DNA of 36,088 nucleotides from Lachnospiraceae bacterium (GTDB lineage: Bacteria; Bacillota; Clostridia; Lachnospirales; Lachnospiraceae): NCBI GenBank assembly GCA_017478245.1, contig JAFVDW010000091.1, forward strand, positions 1-36,088. Direction: 5' to 3'. The notes under the pieces are model-generated. The model was not told the origin of the DNA. It was given only the letters and a program-made list of their open reading frames with translations, and ran no database searches. The position numbers and the translations under genes are program-made. Below, one piece after another: positions 25,928-36,088 of the stretch (within the stretch, counting starts at the first letter, position 1; the number at the start of each line of letters is the position of its first letter).

Positions 25928-27729
<1,802 letters not shown>

Positions 27730-27775: not shown

Positions 27776-28663
27776 TTAATGCTTGCCCTTCTGCGCCTTT
27801 GCCCCCGCGGAGACCTCTGTGATCTCCTGTGTGATAGCAGCCTGCCGCACCCCGTTATAGCGTAGGGACAGATTATCAATCAGCTCCTCCGCATTGCGAT
27901 TTGCATTACTCATCGCATTCATACGCGCATTCTGCTCCGCAGAAAAACTATCCACCAGCGCTCCATAGATAAAGCCCGCAATATACCCTGGCATACAACG
28001 GTTAATGACCTCCGTTACAGAAGGATGGAATTTGAAGTGCACATCCACCTCATTTTTCTTCTCCTCCGGCGTCAGGAAATATTTGCGTTCAAAAGGAAGC
28101 AAGCGCTCCATCTTTACCGTAGATGTCAGCTCGCTCTCCATATCACTGTATATAATGCGGATTTCATCCACATGTCCCGCATCATACTCTGCAAGCAATG
28201 TATAACAAATCTCTCGCGCCCTGCGAAACGTAGGATTCTGCGCAGTATAAAGAAATGACTGCTCTATGGGAATTCCACGCTTTGAGAAATATCTTCTCCC
28301 ATACTCTCCCACCACATAGAGCTGCACTTTTTTATGCTTTTCAATCTCCACCTGTGCCCGTTTTAACACATTATAGTTGTAAGCACCTGCCAATCCCTTG
28401 TCCGCAGTGATGACCAGATAAGCATATGTCTCCGCTTTTTTTCGTCCCGTTTTGGGATAAAAGTAGTGAGAGTTCACATCCGCCTCACTCTGAAATATTC
28501 GCTTGATCTCCTGCTCCTGCTGAAGAAAATAGGGGCGCGTATCCTTCAACGCCTGCTTTGCCTTTTGCAGCTTGGTAGAGGAAATAAGATACATTGCATT
28601 GGTAATCTTTCTCGTATTGGAGACACTATCGATTCTGTCTCTGATCTCCTTTGCATTTGCCAT
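27776..28663 (-). CDS. atpG: F1Fo ATP synthase subunit gamma
   Basis: Central rotor shaft, 295 residues. The N-terminal helix IRDRIDSVSNTRKITNAMYLISS and the C-terminal helix NARMNAMSNANRNAEELIDNLSLRYNGVRQAAITQEITEV are the two long helices of the coiled coil. The middle contains GLAGAYNYNV. It starts 30 bases after the atpA stop on the same transcript. Confidence 0.96.
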   Translation of the reverse strand: MANAKEIRDRIDSVSNTRKITNAMYLISSTKLQKAKQALKDTRPYFLQQEQEIKRIFQSEADVNSHYFYPKTGRKKAETYAYLVITADKGLAGAYNYNVLKRAQVEIEKHKKVQLYVVGEYGRRYFSKRGIPIEQSFLYTAQNPTFRRAREICYTLLAEYDAGHVDEIRIIYSDMESELTSTVKMERLLPFERKYFLTPEEKKNEVDVHFKFHPSVTEVINRCMPGYIAGFIYGALVDSFSAEQNARMNAMSNANRNAEELIDNLSLRYNGVRQAAITQEITEVSAGAKAQKGKH

Positions 28664-28693: not shown

Positions 28694-30463
28694 CTATTCA
28701 CTAATTTCCAAATAAATATTTCTATAATCCTTCGCACATTGGATGATTCTCTCTTTGTCCTCATCCGTAATCTGACCTTTTTTATTAATGCGATAACACA
28801 GATTTGCCTCCTCTACCGCAATATAGGACAGAAGACCTTTCTGGAACCGCGGCAGATCGTCCAGTGGAATACCTTCCATCACATGTGCCGTAGCTGCTAT
28901 AAGCAGTACTACCTGTTCATGAAGCTGATAGGGCTTTGACTGCTCCTGTCTAAGCAGACGCATCAAGCTCTGACCATAAGCCAACTGACTCTTGGTGGCT
29001 TCATCCAGATCATTGGCAAACTGTGTAAAGACCTCCATCTCACGATACTGCGCCAAATCCAAACGAATACTTCCCGAAGCCTTCTTCATCGCCTTGGTCT
29101 GCGCTGCACCACCCACACGGGATACGGAAAGTCCCACATTGACTGCCGGACGCTGCCCTGCAAAAAAGAGATCGCTCTCCAGAAAAATCTGTCCGTCCGT
29201 GATGGATATGATATTGGTCGGAATATAGGCAGATACATCTCCCGCCTGGGTCTCAACAATGGGCAGTGCCGTCATACTGCCTCCACCCGCCTCCTCTGAC
29301 AAGTGCGCTGATCTCTCCAACAATCTGGAATGCAGATAGAATACATCGCCCGGATATGCCTCACGACCAGGGGAACGCTCCAATAACAGCGAAATAGAAC
29401 GATACGCGATGGCATGCTTAGACAGATCGTCATATACAATCAGTACGTCTTTTCCCTGGTGCATAAAATACTCGCCAAGCGCAGTGCCCGCATAGGGCGC
29501 AATATACTGCATAGGCGCCGACTCACTGGCGGAAGCATTCACCACGATTGTGTACTTCATCGCCCCTCTTCTGCGCAGGGTGTGCACCAACTGCGCAACA
29601 CTGCTCGCCTTCTGCCCGATTGCCACATAGATACAGATGACGCCATTTCTCTTTTGGTTTAAAATGGTGTCTATTGCAATGGCAGTCTTGCCTGTCTGAC
29701 GGTCACCGATAATCAACTCTCTCTGCCCCCGTCCGATGGGGAACATAGAATCAATACAGAGAATACCGGTATTCATAGGCGTATCTACCGGCTGTCTGTC
29801 TATAATCGCCGGAGCAGCAGCCTCAATCTCACGATAGCCATCGGTCTTGATGGGTCCTTTACCATCGATGGGATTACCCAAGGCATCCACTACTCTGCCC
29901 ACAAAATCCTCACCTACGGGGATGCCTGCTGTCTTACCGGTTCTGCGTACAATACTTCCCTCAGTTACTTCCTCTTCATCGCCAAACAGAATGATACCGA
30001 TAGCACCGTGCTTTAAATCCTGCACCATCCCTTTCACGCCGGATTCAAAGATGACGATTTCGCCATACACTACATTTTGCAATCCTTCCGCAAACACAAT
30101 CCCATCTCCGACGGTCAGTACTCTACCCTCTTCCTCGGCGACAGCCTGCAGTTGCCATTCATCGATAGACGTACGAAACAGAGAGATCAGTTCCTCGCTG
30201 CTCTTACCGGTATCCTTACCTGCCAATTCTCCCAAGAATTGTCTCAACTGCTGAAGACGTCCCTCTCTGGTCCAGTCGTATATATCATCTCCCACAAGCA
30301 GCTTGAAGCCTGACTTGATCTTTTCATCGCACAACCATACAAGCTCATAATCCTTGTGGTACTTCTTCTTCAAAAAATTCTTAAAACGTATCCGCTGCGT
30401 GGAGTCCGGTTCCTCAAAGGAATACAGAAATGCCTGCGTCTGCGTTTCTCTATTCTCCGCCAT
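28694..30463 (-). CDS. atpA: F1Fo ATP synthase subunit alpha with fused delta-subunit C-terminal domain
   Basis: Regulatory/structural alpha subunit of F1, 589 residues, about 85 longer than usual. Residues about 88-589 are normal alpha: N-terminal helix [15 protein letters not shown]-loop GDRQTGKT (253-260) and the arginine-finger region. Residues 1-80 align with the C-terminal domain of delta (AtpH): [21 protein letters not shown], then [19 protein letters not shown] and [10 protein letters not shown], matching the E. coli pattern of D-x-x-x-x-x-G-x-x-x-x-x-G-D-x-x-x-D-x-x-x-x-G-R-L. The ATG has AAAGGAG 8 bases ahead and overlaps atpF by 14 bases. No convincing internal start could make a normal alpha. 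Confidence 0.93.
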
Positions 30464-30944
30464 TTACCGTGCTCCTTTCCACATCATCCAGAAAGGCATC
30501 GTACACGCTGCCCTCGCCGCCTTCCAACATCAGCTTCTCGGCAGCCTCCACGATCATCTTAGATATCTCTGACTTCGCGTCATCCAGAATCGCACTACGC
30601 TTCTTCTCCGCATCGCGCTTCGCATCTGCAATAATCTTGGCAGCCTCTTCTCTGACATCGCGGGTTCCCGCCTGCCTCTCACGCTCCAGATCTGTAGCAG
30701 CCTTTTTCTTCTGTGCGGCAATTTCATCCTGCACATTACGCAGCTTCTCTTCATAAGAATGCTTCATATCCTCCGCATCCTGAAGAGCAGCCTTCGCCTG
30801 TTCTTCCATTTCCTTATAGTGGTCTTCTCTCTGCTGCATAAATTTCTTCACCGGTGCATATAAGAGAATGTAAAGCCCTCCGAAGAGTACCACTACATTA
30901 AACAGATGAAGAAATATTTGCATAAAATCTATACCTAGTGGCAT
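30450..30944 (-). CDS. atpF: F1Fo ATP synthase subunit b
   Basis: Peripheral-stalk subunit of 164 residues. A single N-terminal membrane helix ([23 protein letters not shown]) is followed by a long charged coiled coil ending in [20 protein letters not shown], as in AtpF. It is of ordinary length with no extra delta domain. The start is the ATG at 30944 with GGAGG 8 bases upstream. It ends inside the atpA start. A 200-base, repeat-rich gap separates it from atpE. Confidence 0.95.
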
Positions 30945-30960
30945 AGTATATACCTCCATT

Positions 30961-31149: not shown

Positions 31150-31521
31150 TCACATGACAAATACGATTAAGATTGCTACGATTAAGGCATAGATTACGAC
31201 GGTCTCTATAAATACCAGACCCAACATGAGGAGGGCTCTGATGCTGCCTTCTGCTTCGGGTTGGCGCGCAATGCCTTCATTGGACTTTGCGATGGCCAGT
31301 CCCATGCCGATGGCGCCGGCTGCTGCTGCCAAACCGATGGCAATAGCTGCACCGATGGCTTTGCCGCTGGTTGCGTCCGCACTACCTGCGTCCTCCGTAA
31401 TCTCTACCTCGCCGGTAGCTGCTTCTGCTGCGTTTACCTTAGACGCACCCACAAATGTGGTGATGGTCATCGTAACAATAAGTAATGCCAATGCCAAAGA
31501 TATTCTCTTTAAATGCTTCAT
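31150..31521 (-). CDS. atpE: F1Fo ATP synthase subunit c with N-terminal signal-like extension
   Basis: Proteolipid ring subunit; 123 residues compared with about 75-90 for most. Residues 1-33 look like a cleavable signal peptide (KRISLALALLIVTMTITTFVGAS) followed by an acidic linker (34-52). The hairpin core follows, with the RQPEA loop (86-90) and ion-binding E106 in VFIETVVIYALI. Around it, T107 and Y111 fit Na+-type rings but the usual Gln of helix 1 is Met73, so Na+ versus H+ is undecided. ATG overlaps the atpB stop by four bases. Confidence 0.93.
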   Translation of the reverse strand: MKHLKRISLALALLIVTMTITTFVGASKVNAAEAATGEVEITEDAGSADATSGKAIGAAIAIGLAAAAGAIGMGLAIAKSNEGIARQPEAEGSIRALLMLGLVFIETVVIYALIVAILIVFVM

Positions 31522-32375
31522 GATGCTTCTCCTCCAACTGCCGCCTGTGCAGCTTTTTCTTTTCTTTCTTTTTTCTGTGTAACCTCCGTCACTTCACCGT
31601 AGTATACCGATGTCAGCATCGTCAACACATATGCTTGAATCAACGCATGCAGCACAGTGAACAATACACCTACCACCACCGGTAGGAAAAAGCTTAAGCG
31701 TATATAAAAATACACCAGTTCTGTCGTCAGCATACCCGACAATAACGCTCCGAAGAGACGGAAGGTCATGGATATGGGCAGGGAAAATTCCTTCAACGCC
31801 AATCCGATTCCTTTCACCTTGTTCGTCACCACACCGCCAAACAGGATGAAGAAATAGGAAAAGAAGCCCATTGCAATCGCCCCATTAATATTGGCCAAGG
31901 GTGCCGGAAGGGAGACCGAATGTCCTTGGGTTGTAATGCCCTGCACACCAAAAAGTTCAAACATGGTGCCCACGAAAATGTATGTTCCTGCTGTAAAGAT
32001 ATAAGCTCCCAGTGCTTTGTTCTTGTGTGGGCTGTTACTCTTTGCAAGATTGTCAAAGAAGCCTACCCACTCCTCAATCAACAGTTGAAATTTACCCGGA
32101 ACATATTGAAATCTGGGAATCGCAAATATACGAATCGCCGCTGCAAACAAAAGCAGCACCCCTGTCACGATGAAGCCGGACACCAGTGAAGGATCCACTT
32201 CAATCAATCCCAGGATTGGAATCTTGTTCTCATCGTGCAGTACGGCATCCCGCATGGCTTGCTTAATCGTCTCATGCTTGATGGAGTACGGCCTTGAAAG
32301 AATGATTCCTATGATGAACAATACGATCATCACCGCCATAATAATCAGGCTTTTGGTTCTTTTTTTCTTGTCCAA
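31518..32375 (-). CDS. atpB: F1Fo ATP synthase subunit a
   Basis: Stator channel subunit, 285 residues, with about six membrane helices. The essential Arg is in MTFRLFGALLSG, and LTSVYYGEVTEV closes the last helix. I set the start at TTG 32375: GGAGGTGG lies 9 bases ahead, while the upstream in-frame TTG at 32405 has no site and would place the ribosome site inside the gene. It is the first gene of the atp operon. No atpI precedes it. Confidence 0.92.
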   Translation of the reverse strand: MDKKKRTKSLIIMAVMIVLFIIGIILSRPYSIKHETIKQAMRDAVLHDENKIPILGLIEVDPSLVSGFIVTGVLLLFAAAIRIFAIPRFQYVPGKFQLLIEEWVGFFDNLAKSNSPHKNKALGAYIFTAGTYIFVGTMFELFGVQGITTQGHSVSLPAPLANINGAIAMGFFSYFFILFGGVVTNKVKGIGLALKEFSLPISMTFRLFGALLSGMLTTELVYFYIRLSFFLPVVVGVLFTVLHALIQAYVLTMLTSVYYGEVTEVTQKKERKEKAAQAAVGGEAS

Positions 32376-32419
32376 GTCGCGTACCACCTCCAAATATTTT
32401 ACCAAAATACATCATTTCT

Positions 32420-32508: not shown

Positions 32509-33309
32509 TTATTTTTCTGTATCCCGCTCCTTGCGCAGATAGACAAAAAAGTACCCTGCGCCGACTATACAGGCTCCACCTATGATATTGCCCAATGTCA
32601 CAGGCACCAGATTCTTCGTCAGAAGCTTCATCCAGGAAAGTGTTTCATCAGGTATACCATATTCGCCTGATACCAGAATACCCGCCGGGATAAAGTACAT
32701 ATTGGCTACACAATGCTCATAGCCTGATACAACAAACAGCATGATTGGCAGGAACAATCCCAGTATTTTGCCCGCTGCATCTTCTGCTGCAAATGAAATC
32801 CATACAGAGATACACACCAGAATATTACACAGGATACCACGCAACAGCGCATCTGTAAAAGCAAGAGACTCCTTTGTGCTGGCTGTTGCCACAACAGCCT
32901 CTGCCAGCTTTCCTCCAAACATAGAATAACTATGACTATACGTCAACAAAACTGCCACAAAAATGCTTCCCACAAAATTCCCCAAATATACAATACCCCA
33001 GTTTCTCAATAATCCCCCTACTGTTGTTTTTTTGTCCAATACTGAGAGAAGAATCAGACTATTCCCTGTAAAAAGCTCCGCCCCCGCCACAATCACCATA
33101 AGCAATCCCACCGGGAAAAGCAGCGCTCCAAGAAACTTACCAATGGCTGCCGGTTCTACGCTCACCGCAGCCACCTGACTGCCAAAGGCGCCAAAGGCAA
33201 TAAATATACCTGCAAATACTGCCAGCACAAACATTTTAGATGTGGACAGCCTGGTCTTGGCTGCTCCTGCCTCCGAATATCTTTTCGCTATCTCTGATGG
33301 TGTATACAT
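32509..33309 (-). CDS. Formate/nitrite transporter family channel (FocA/NirC-like)
   Basis: A 266-residue pentameric-channel-family membrane protein with six helices. The family hallmarks are the N-terminal helix MYTPSEIAKRYSEAGAAK, LFTGNSLILLSVL (the omega loop region) and GYEHCVANMYFIPAG with the gating His. It should carry formate, nitrite or hydrosulfide; formate is most plausible in a fermenter, by inference. Ribosome site GGAGGAAG. It follows a small membrane-protein gene by 21 bases, and precedes the atp operon. Confidence 0.93.
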   Translation of the reverse strand: MYTPSEIAKRYSEAGAAKTRLSTSKMFVLAVFAGIFIAFGAFGSQVAAVSVEPAAIGKFLGALLFPVGLLMVIVAGAELFTGNSLILLSVLDKKTTVGGLLRNWGIVYLGNFVGSIFVAVLLTYSHSYSMFGGKLAEAVVATASTKESLAFTDALLRGILCNILVCISVWISFAAEDAAGKILGLFLPIMLFVVSGYEHCVANMYFIPAGILVSGEYGIPDETLSWMKLLTKNLVPVTLGNIIGGACIVGAGYFFVYLRKERDTEK

Positions 33310-33330: not shown

Positions 33331-33591
33331 TTATCTTCTCTCTTCCGGGTTCTGCTGTTTATCATGGGCTGCTTCTGAATCGCCTTTCCTATGAGCTGTC
33401 AGATCAAACACCAGCGCCATCCCAATCAGCATCCCAAAGCCGGTATATAACGGAACATCATGAACTGCTTTACCAATGACTGCCCCCAGGATACCCCCAA
33501 AGAGCATCCCTGCAAGCAACCCCACATTTACATGAAGTCCCTTTTTCCCATCGCACGCTTCCTCTTTTTCCTTTGTATTCATCTCTTCCAT
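33331..33591 (-). CDS. Small glycine-rich two-helix membrane protein
   Basis: An 86-residue protein with a charged N-terminus, two glycine-zipper-like helices (GLLAGMLFGGILGAVIGKA and YTGFGMLIGMALVFDLT) and a charged C-terminus. I know no family for it. It is transcribed with the FocA-like gene from the promoter at 33661-33689. GAGG lies before the ATG. It could be an accessory or assembly partner of the channel, by position only. Confidence 0.7.
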   Translation of the reverse strand: MEEMNTKEKEEACDGKKGLHVNVGLLAGMLFGGILGAVIGKAVHDVPLYTGFGMLIGMALVFDLTAHRKGDSEAAHDKQQNPEERR

Positions 33592-35398: not shown

Positions 35399-36088
35399 TC
35401 ATTGAATCTGAATAATCACCAAATGTGCCGAGACAGGTCGTGTTCCACCGGCAAGCGGAGTAATCGTAAGTGCTGTCGCATTGCCGGCAGGGTTGCGAAT
35501 TGTCAAAATAGAATTTATGACCGTTGTTGTGACAATCGCCATCCCAATAATCTGAGAGGCTCCTGTTGCACGTCCGGCTACAGTATAGGCAAGATCATTG
35601 CCATTTAATGTGACAATCAACTGCCCTGCTTCGTCCACACTGACCTCATACAATATCAGATAGGTTCCAATCCGGGCAAGGTTAAATGAACTTGCCCCCG
35701 TCCTCGCTATATCTGAGCTACTGTTAGGTCCATCTTGGGGGAAACTCACATCAGTTCCCGGTGCAACTGTCGCCGAATTATCAGGGGGCATAAGTGCATA
35801 GAAATCCGAATAGTTCAGTACACCACCTGCCGGTCCCGCCGGGCCTGTTGCCCCTGCCGGTCCTTGGGGTCCTGCCGGACCTATGGGTCCTCTTGCTCCT
35901 GCCGGTCCCGCCGGGCCTGTTGCTCCTGCCGGACCTGCCGCGCCTTGCGGTCCTGTTGCTCCTGCCGGTCCTATGGGTCCTGTCGCTCCCGTCGGGCCCG
36001 CCGGACCTATGGGTCCTCTTGCTCCTGCCGGTCCTGCCGGGCCTTGCGGTCCTGTCGCCCCTGCCGGGCCCGCCGGACCCTGAGCGCC
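35399..36088 (-). CDS. Collagen-like protein with BclA-type C-terminal domain (5' end outside window)
   Basis: Partial, open at the window edge; 229 residues visible. From the edge come about 29 uninterrupted Gly-X-Y triplets (GPA, GPQ, GAT, GAR, GPI recurring), then [22 protein letters not shown] and a 130-residue beta-rich globular domain ending AHLVIIQIQ. The layout matches exosporium/BclA-like glycoproteins: triple-helical stalk and a trimerising TNF/C1q-like head. Gly codons are mostly GGA/GGT/GGC and Pro mostly CCG, giving a GC-rich tract unlike the neighbours. Location on the spore or cell surface is inference. Confidence 0.85.

Follow-up and report, generated by a model that had tools for sequence, protein, structure and literature searches.

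One complete operon for an F1Fo ATP synthase lies on the minus strand of the window (the whole 36,088-nucleotide stretch of Lachnospiraceae DNA analysed here), and its alpha subunit begins with delta's C-terminal, b-binding domain. Within the limits of sequence evidence, we regard both the presence of this domain and its translation as nearly certain. We propose that delta lost its N-terminal domain and that its C-terminal domain (deltaCTD) became attached to the N-terminus of alpha, which, with three alphas per F1, would place three b-binding sites around the crown. With the N-terminal domain of delta gone from the central axis, nothing would limit the enzyme to one stalk, and several stalks in some molecules would follow from these two features together: at least part of the molecules would bind two or three stalks, each with a b dimer and an a subunit, like an engineered enzyme of Bacillus PS3. 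Since every extra a subunit would add to the protons that pass in each turn, such an enzyme would run in low gear and could make ATP when the proton motive force is low, beside an ordinary enzyme with one stalk that is encoded at another place in the genome. From the example of the engineered enzyme, we consider it probable that at least part of the molecules carry more than one stalk.

The operon runs from 32405 to 25928 in the order a-c-b-[deltaCTD-alpha]-gamma-beta-epsilon, with the following features.

31518..32405, minus strand: a subunit, 295 residues, TTG start in the list of open reading frames
31150..31521, minus strand: c subunit, 123 residues, with a long N-terminal extension
30450..30959, minus strand: b subunit, a separate gene of 169 residues
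30472..30478, minus strand: AAAGGAG, a ribosome-binding-like word 8 bases before the ATG of the fused gene
28694..30463, minus strand: fused gene, delta C-terminal domain plus alpha, 589 residues, ATG start (open reading frame, Pfam and TIGR matches)
30221..30454, minus strand: delta (OSCP) C-terminal, b-binding domain, about residues 4-81 (Pfam and family profile)
30200..30220, minus strand: linker, about residues 82-88 (gap between the delta and alpha domain matches)
28697..30199, minus strand: ordinary alpha body, residues 89-589 (TIGR00962 and motifs)
27776..28663, minus strand: gamma subunit
26335..27723, minus strand: beta subunit
25928..26338, minus strand: epsilon subunit

All seven subunits of an F1Fo enzyme are present, with the P-loops, RLFG in the a subunit and ET in the c subunit. 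The alpha body carries GDRQTGKT at residue 253 and SVSRVGG at 446, which we take, with the other motifs of the operon, to have catalytic or ion-path roles. Open reading frames, Pfam matches and a genome-wide OSCP search revealed neither a separate delta gene nor an unfused alpha within the operon.

A sequence-only reading had assigned residues 1-80 to the delta C-terminal domain and the remainder to ordinary alpha, and had suggested an HMM search of the N-terminus against the OSCP/delta profile. That search bears out both assignments: positions 97-170 of the 172-position Pfam profile align to residues 3-75 (E 3.3e-5, 24.5 bits with a cut-off of 22.3; 27.9 bits for this gene in the whole-genome search), three alpha domains follow at residues 110-579, and TIGR00962 (atpA) covers residues 89-582 with 751 bits. 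As the OSCP match begins at profile position 97 and residue 3, the delta N-terminal domain is absent from the chain. A family profile, which has the window itself among its training rows, places the domain at residues 4-81 (E 2.5e-32). The NCBI models call the protein simply 'alpha'. Chance similarity to delta is ruled out by the comparison of fused N-termini with five unfused deltas (hhalign probability 98.9, E 1.1e-17), by matches of a profile of 24 fused N-termini to the solved deltas of PS3 (6n2y, E 2.9e-6), Escherichia coli (5t4o, E 1.1e-4) and the mycobacterial b-delta (7jg5, E 1.1e-4), and by OSCP matches in 59 of the 62 aligned fused relatives at E <= 0.01. With the threshold at E <= 0.001, the fused gene has an OSCP match in 32 of 35 genomes, 30 of them above the Pfam cut-off; the exceptions are G004, G044 and G184.

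Translation from the first ATG, for which the same reading had invoked a ribosome site and a 14-base overlap with atpF, is likewise supported, as AAAGGAG and the overlap (30450-30463) are both in place. Up to residue 117, in-frame ATG, GTG or TTG codons occur only at residues 1, 31, 44, 57, 73, 77 and 80; since residues 81-117 hold none, an alpha starting near residue 88 is ruled out. The reading had named as refuting it a full-length atpH elsewhere in the genome together with an alpha start near residue 88; the former exists, the latter does not. Among 91 relatives, 69 have a start with a ribosome-site-like word ahead of the delta domain. The codons of this domain are constrained in 11 of 11 pairs (pN/pS 0.08-0.56), in every pair more weakly than those of alpha.

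The full-length delta (182 residues, E 2e-48) lies on contig C102 in an operon of canonical order, a-c-b-delta-alpha-gamma-beta with an alpha of 508 residues, ended by the contig end. Thus, the window's operon is the second F-ATPase of its genome. Across 36 fused genomes, the window's and 35 others, TIGR00962 finds at least two alphas in 25 and one in 11. In 10 of the 35 others, the fused gene is both the only alpha and the only OSCP match at E <= 0.001, in a search that leaves 3 of the 35 fused genes undetected. Eight of these ten lack the delta N-terminal domain (G154, G142, G062, G109, G130, G043, G079 and G068) and two have a full fusion (G082 and G050), with genome completeness of 87% for G154 and 94-99% for the others.

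The sequence-only reading had known of no described delta-alpha fusion. This proved mistaken: the fusion is of an already known kind, since Ueno et al. (2025) describe engineered and natural cases (PMC12229609). In Bacillus PS3 they removed the delta N-terminal domain, which lies on the three-fold axis and, in their argument, restricts the enzyme to a single stalk, and fused the rest of delta to alpha. The engineered enzyme, solved as PDB 9JC1, contains 2.2 times the a and 1.8 times the b of the wild type, has an H+/ATP of 5.8 versus 3.0, and makes ATP at lower proton force. They also point to Acidaminococcus fermentans and UniProt entries G4Q3K6 and A0A1I2C5T3 as natural cases of a fusion lacking the N-terminal domain, and predict multi-stalk enzymes; by their description, the window shares this architecture. 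In our literature search, which covered mostly titles and the openings of abstracts, with subscription papers and preprints outside it, PMC12229609 was the only paper recognised as dealing with a delta-alpha fusion.

The window's chain and the engineered one (9jc1_I) form one continuous alignment (residues 28-569 to 24-563, E 5.5e-185), with deltaCTD ahead of alpha, no delta N-terminal domain, and separate b and a subunits in both. Whereas the PS3 protein is designed, with an artificial linker and a truncated epsilon, that of the window is natural, belongs to an alternate alpha clade, and comes with a full epsilon and an extended c. Other known systems are less alike. The mycobacterial and Gordonia b-delta (7jg5; PMC5709465) also joins delta to a neighbouring subunit, but there the partner is b, whereas here it is alpha; with b as a separate 169-residue frame, the window's operon is not an actinobacterial b-delta case. 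N-ATPases (TIGR03324) similarly have no separate delta gene, but their order is beta-epsilon...a-c-b-alpha-gamma and their b is longer and E-like (PMC5709465, PMC5706428). The window stays below the cut-offs of the corresponding models (602.3 of 750.5 bits for TIGR03324 and 583.1 of 752 for TIGR03305), and we rejected this assignment.

The delta-alpha fusion is present in one open frame in at least 44 of 200 same-family genomes, the window's included and two of them contig fragments; a separate case, G071, would be the 45th. Of the 80 best related loci, a set that says nothing on the fused share among all genomes, 79 are fused (72 deltaCTD-alpha and 7 full delta-alpha) and one, L158, has separate genes. 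We read 40 operons closely and found 26 deltaCTD-alpha, 8 full delta-alpha and 1 b-deltaCTD-alpha fusions and 5 with separate genes, an additional delta frame being detected only in the last five. The length ahead of the alpha core falls into two classes, 99-148 residues in 82 and 196-211 in 15 of 97 measured rows, with 16 more deltaCTD rows outside the alpha-core pattern measurement. Carriers include Lachnospiraceae, Oscillospiraceae, Faecalibacterium gallinarum (JCM 17207), Oribacterium parvum (ACB1), Acutalibacter and Mogibacterium. Within the window's own genus, 10 of 41 genomes match the profile at 1e-20 and six, again with the window's, do so in fused frames, counted as unbroken matches starting at or before profile position 10; G633, whose match starts at position 35 and whose chain is b'-deltaCTD-alpha, falls outside this count. 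A sample of 398 genomes from across the phylum shows the fusion to be rare: counting stop-free rows that reach into the delta part, the window's type occurs in five (G000, G468, G180, G595 and G341), and eight fusions in four families sit on canonical-type alphas (G220, G264, G367 and G392, the last a contig fragment; G281; G200 and G500; G313). The other genome of G281's family, G239, gave no match. Plasmid spread was considered and rejected, as the 10 plasmid records give weak matches, all below 60% identity; among the five listed, separate delta and alpha genes are annotated in three, and two carry no annotation. In five unfused loci (L059, L068, L071, L072 and L075), chosen by a search favouring in-frame closeness of the two genes, delta and alpha share a frame and lie 0-42 bases apart, so that few changes separate these operons from fusion.

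We built a maximum-likelihood tree of alpha without its delta part from 40 chosen rows. The window falls within a clade of alternate alphas (100/99) in which unfused alphas occur together with full, truncated and b-joined fusions. In two places, L051/L056 (100/97) and L055/L069 (99/85), a truncated form has a full one as its nearest neighbour, and the truncated state takes eight changes on the tree, at least five of them forced by starred branches; truncation thus looks repeatable, on a tree that does not distinguish gain from loss of the truncated state. Outside this clade lie L082 (G281), L183 (G220), L184 (G200), L086 (G071), L188 (G633) and, weakly, L185 (G231). L183 comes from a one-contig genome, and two more genomes of its genus (G264 and G367) match in one frame, as does one (G500) of the genus of L184. 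L185 is not counted as sure, because its delta domain scores close to noise (E 0.0055) and OSCP matches nothing in G231 at 0.01. The mutual order of these fusions is poorly resolved, so they may have one or several origins. A FastTree tree of 118 rows (of 124, after dropping alpha cores below 430 residues) again places L082 and L086 outside a 100* clade.

Some chains also take in b. A 778-residue b-deltaCTD-alpha chain in G068 (L079:5556-7892) matches ATP-synt_B, OSCP and alpha, has stops in the other frames at its junction, and is the only PF00430 (b) and the only alpha match of that genome, with no separate b; because b would equal alpha in number, this b would be too scarce for three b dimers. 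No second b-deltaCTD-alpha case appeared among 60 relatives of G068. In G633, of the window's genus and with a canonical delta also present, a 736-residue chain (L188:3297-5507) joins a b-like membrane part, deltaCTD and alpha beside a separate b of 140 residues, and in G071 a 315-residue b' upstream of deltaCTD-alpha (L086:4477-5421) has a tail weakly like two tandem deltaCTDs (protein E 1.6e-4, per domain 0.02-0.03). The two triple fusions are each known from one genome and may be assembly or sequencing errors. Taken as read, the L188 arrangement, with a free b next to the b'-deltaCTD-alpha chain, would link every alpha to a stalk of its own. V-ATPases have three peripheral stalks, and the window's enzyme may resemble them in stalk number; their stalk subunits are unrelated, and the likeness would be convergence. 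In G633, b could pair with b'-deltaCTD-alpha so that every alpha has its own b.b' stalk, which would make this F-type enzyme a convergent counterpart of the V-ATPase with its three stalks; this is part of a wider reading that we hold to be somewhat short of an even chance.

A multi-stalk enzyme is made likely, by analogy, by the 9jc1_I-like domain order, the whole set of subunits, the genomes with no alpha and no OSCP match other than the fused gene, the repeated truncation, the constraint on the fused domain in all pairs, and the b'-deltaCTD-alpha chain of L188. Counting against it, the stalk and a-subunit numbers suggested here are carried over from engineered PS3, with its cryo-EM mean of 1.26 stalks per particle, a figure that its authors attribute to loss on the grid (PMC12229609). 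The L079 chain, with as many b as alpha, also speaks against it. The main rival, less probable in our judgement but to be taken seriously, is a single working stalk: one of three tethered delta domains would bind b2/a, two would be idle, and the fusion would replace the N-terminal domain as the anchor on F1. Such an enzyme would agree with the 51% of engineered particles with one stalk and 15% with none (26% have two and 8% three; PMC12229609), and with an operon in which a and b are each encoded once and the sequence gives no sign that either is made in larger amounts. The deltaCTD also evolves faster than alpha, as expected if some copies are idle. Furthermore, in full delta-alpha fusions one N-terminal domain could still occupy the axis, and this domain is constrained about as strongly as the C-terminal one (pN/pS 0.17-0.70 versus 0.13-0.57 in 10 pairs), so that fusion alone does not mean several stalks. 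Against a single stalk stand the three equal sites without a blocking domain predicted for the window's enzyme, and the average of about two stalks that both SDS-PAGE and H+/ATP give for the engineered one (PMC12229609).

Were the chain cut, or alpha also made from an internal start, most alphas would be free of delta and the complex canonical; 26 of 91 relatives do have a start with a ribosome-site-like word within 47 codons ahead of the alpha core, but the same count in eight control stretches inside alpha is 6-28 of 91, which leaves no excess, and the window has no start codon at residues 81-117. We hold such an arrangement, by cleavage or internal start, to be improbable. The genome is a 119-contig draft, yet an assembly or sequencing error joining two genes is scarcely credible given the fusion's recurrence among same-family genomes and the best related loci, which rules out an artefact peculiar to the window, its occurrence in O. 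parvum ACB1 and F. gallinarum JCM 17207, and an independent case in the one-contig G220. Decay of a functionless second operon, conceivable where a canonical one is also present, is just as hard to believe, since none of the seven genes is interrupted, their motifs are intact, and the fused operon supplies the only ATP synthase alpha and delta of ten relatives' genomes.

How many protons an ATP costs is taken to depend on the c-ring, since only one a subunit is present in every ATP synthase so far (PMC12229609). If the natural deltaCTD-alpha enzymes are multi-stalk, the gear could also be set by the number of a subunits, and both gears would be at the disposal of many anaerobes. Culturable organisms for tests, evolutionary intermediates and b-delta-alpha chains, in which stalk number is expected to follow alpha number, are all to be had within the family. 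What we add from gene sequences is that the fusion occurs commonly in the family of the window and among related Clostridia, where it often belongs to a second ATP synthase, and that there are full-length intermediates, recurrent truncation and a b subunit drawn in; these points were not found in the sections of PMC12229609 consulted or in the other literature searched.

The c subunit (31150-31521) has an N-terminal extension of about 50 residues that looks signal-peptide-like by eye. Its length is 111-165 residues where the a subunit is of the window's type (79 frames) and 70-95 otherwise (38 frames). Directly upstream of the operon is a gene of the Formate/nitrite transporter family (32509-33309, Pfam), which is also near the operon at L193 and within the flanks of none of 120 other loci. 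Farther upstream lie an 86-residue frame with hydrophobic stretches and weak Pfam matches only (33331-33591) and, at the window's end, a frame with collagen-like GPAGP repeats (35883-36083).
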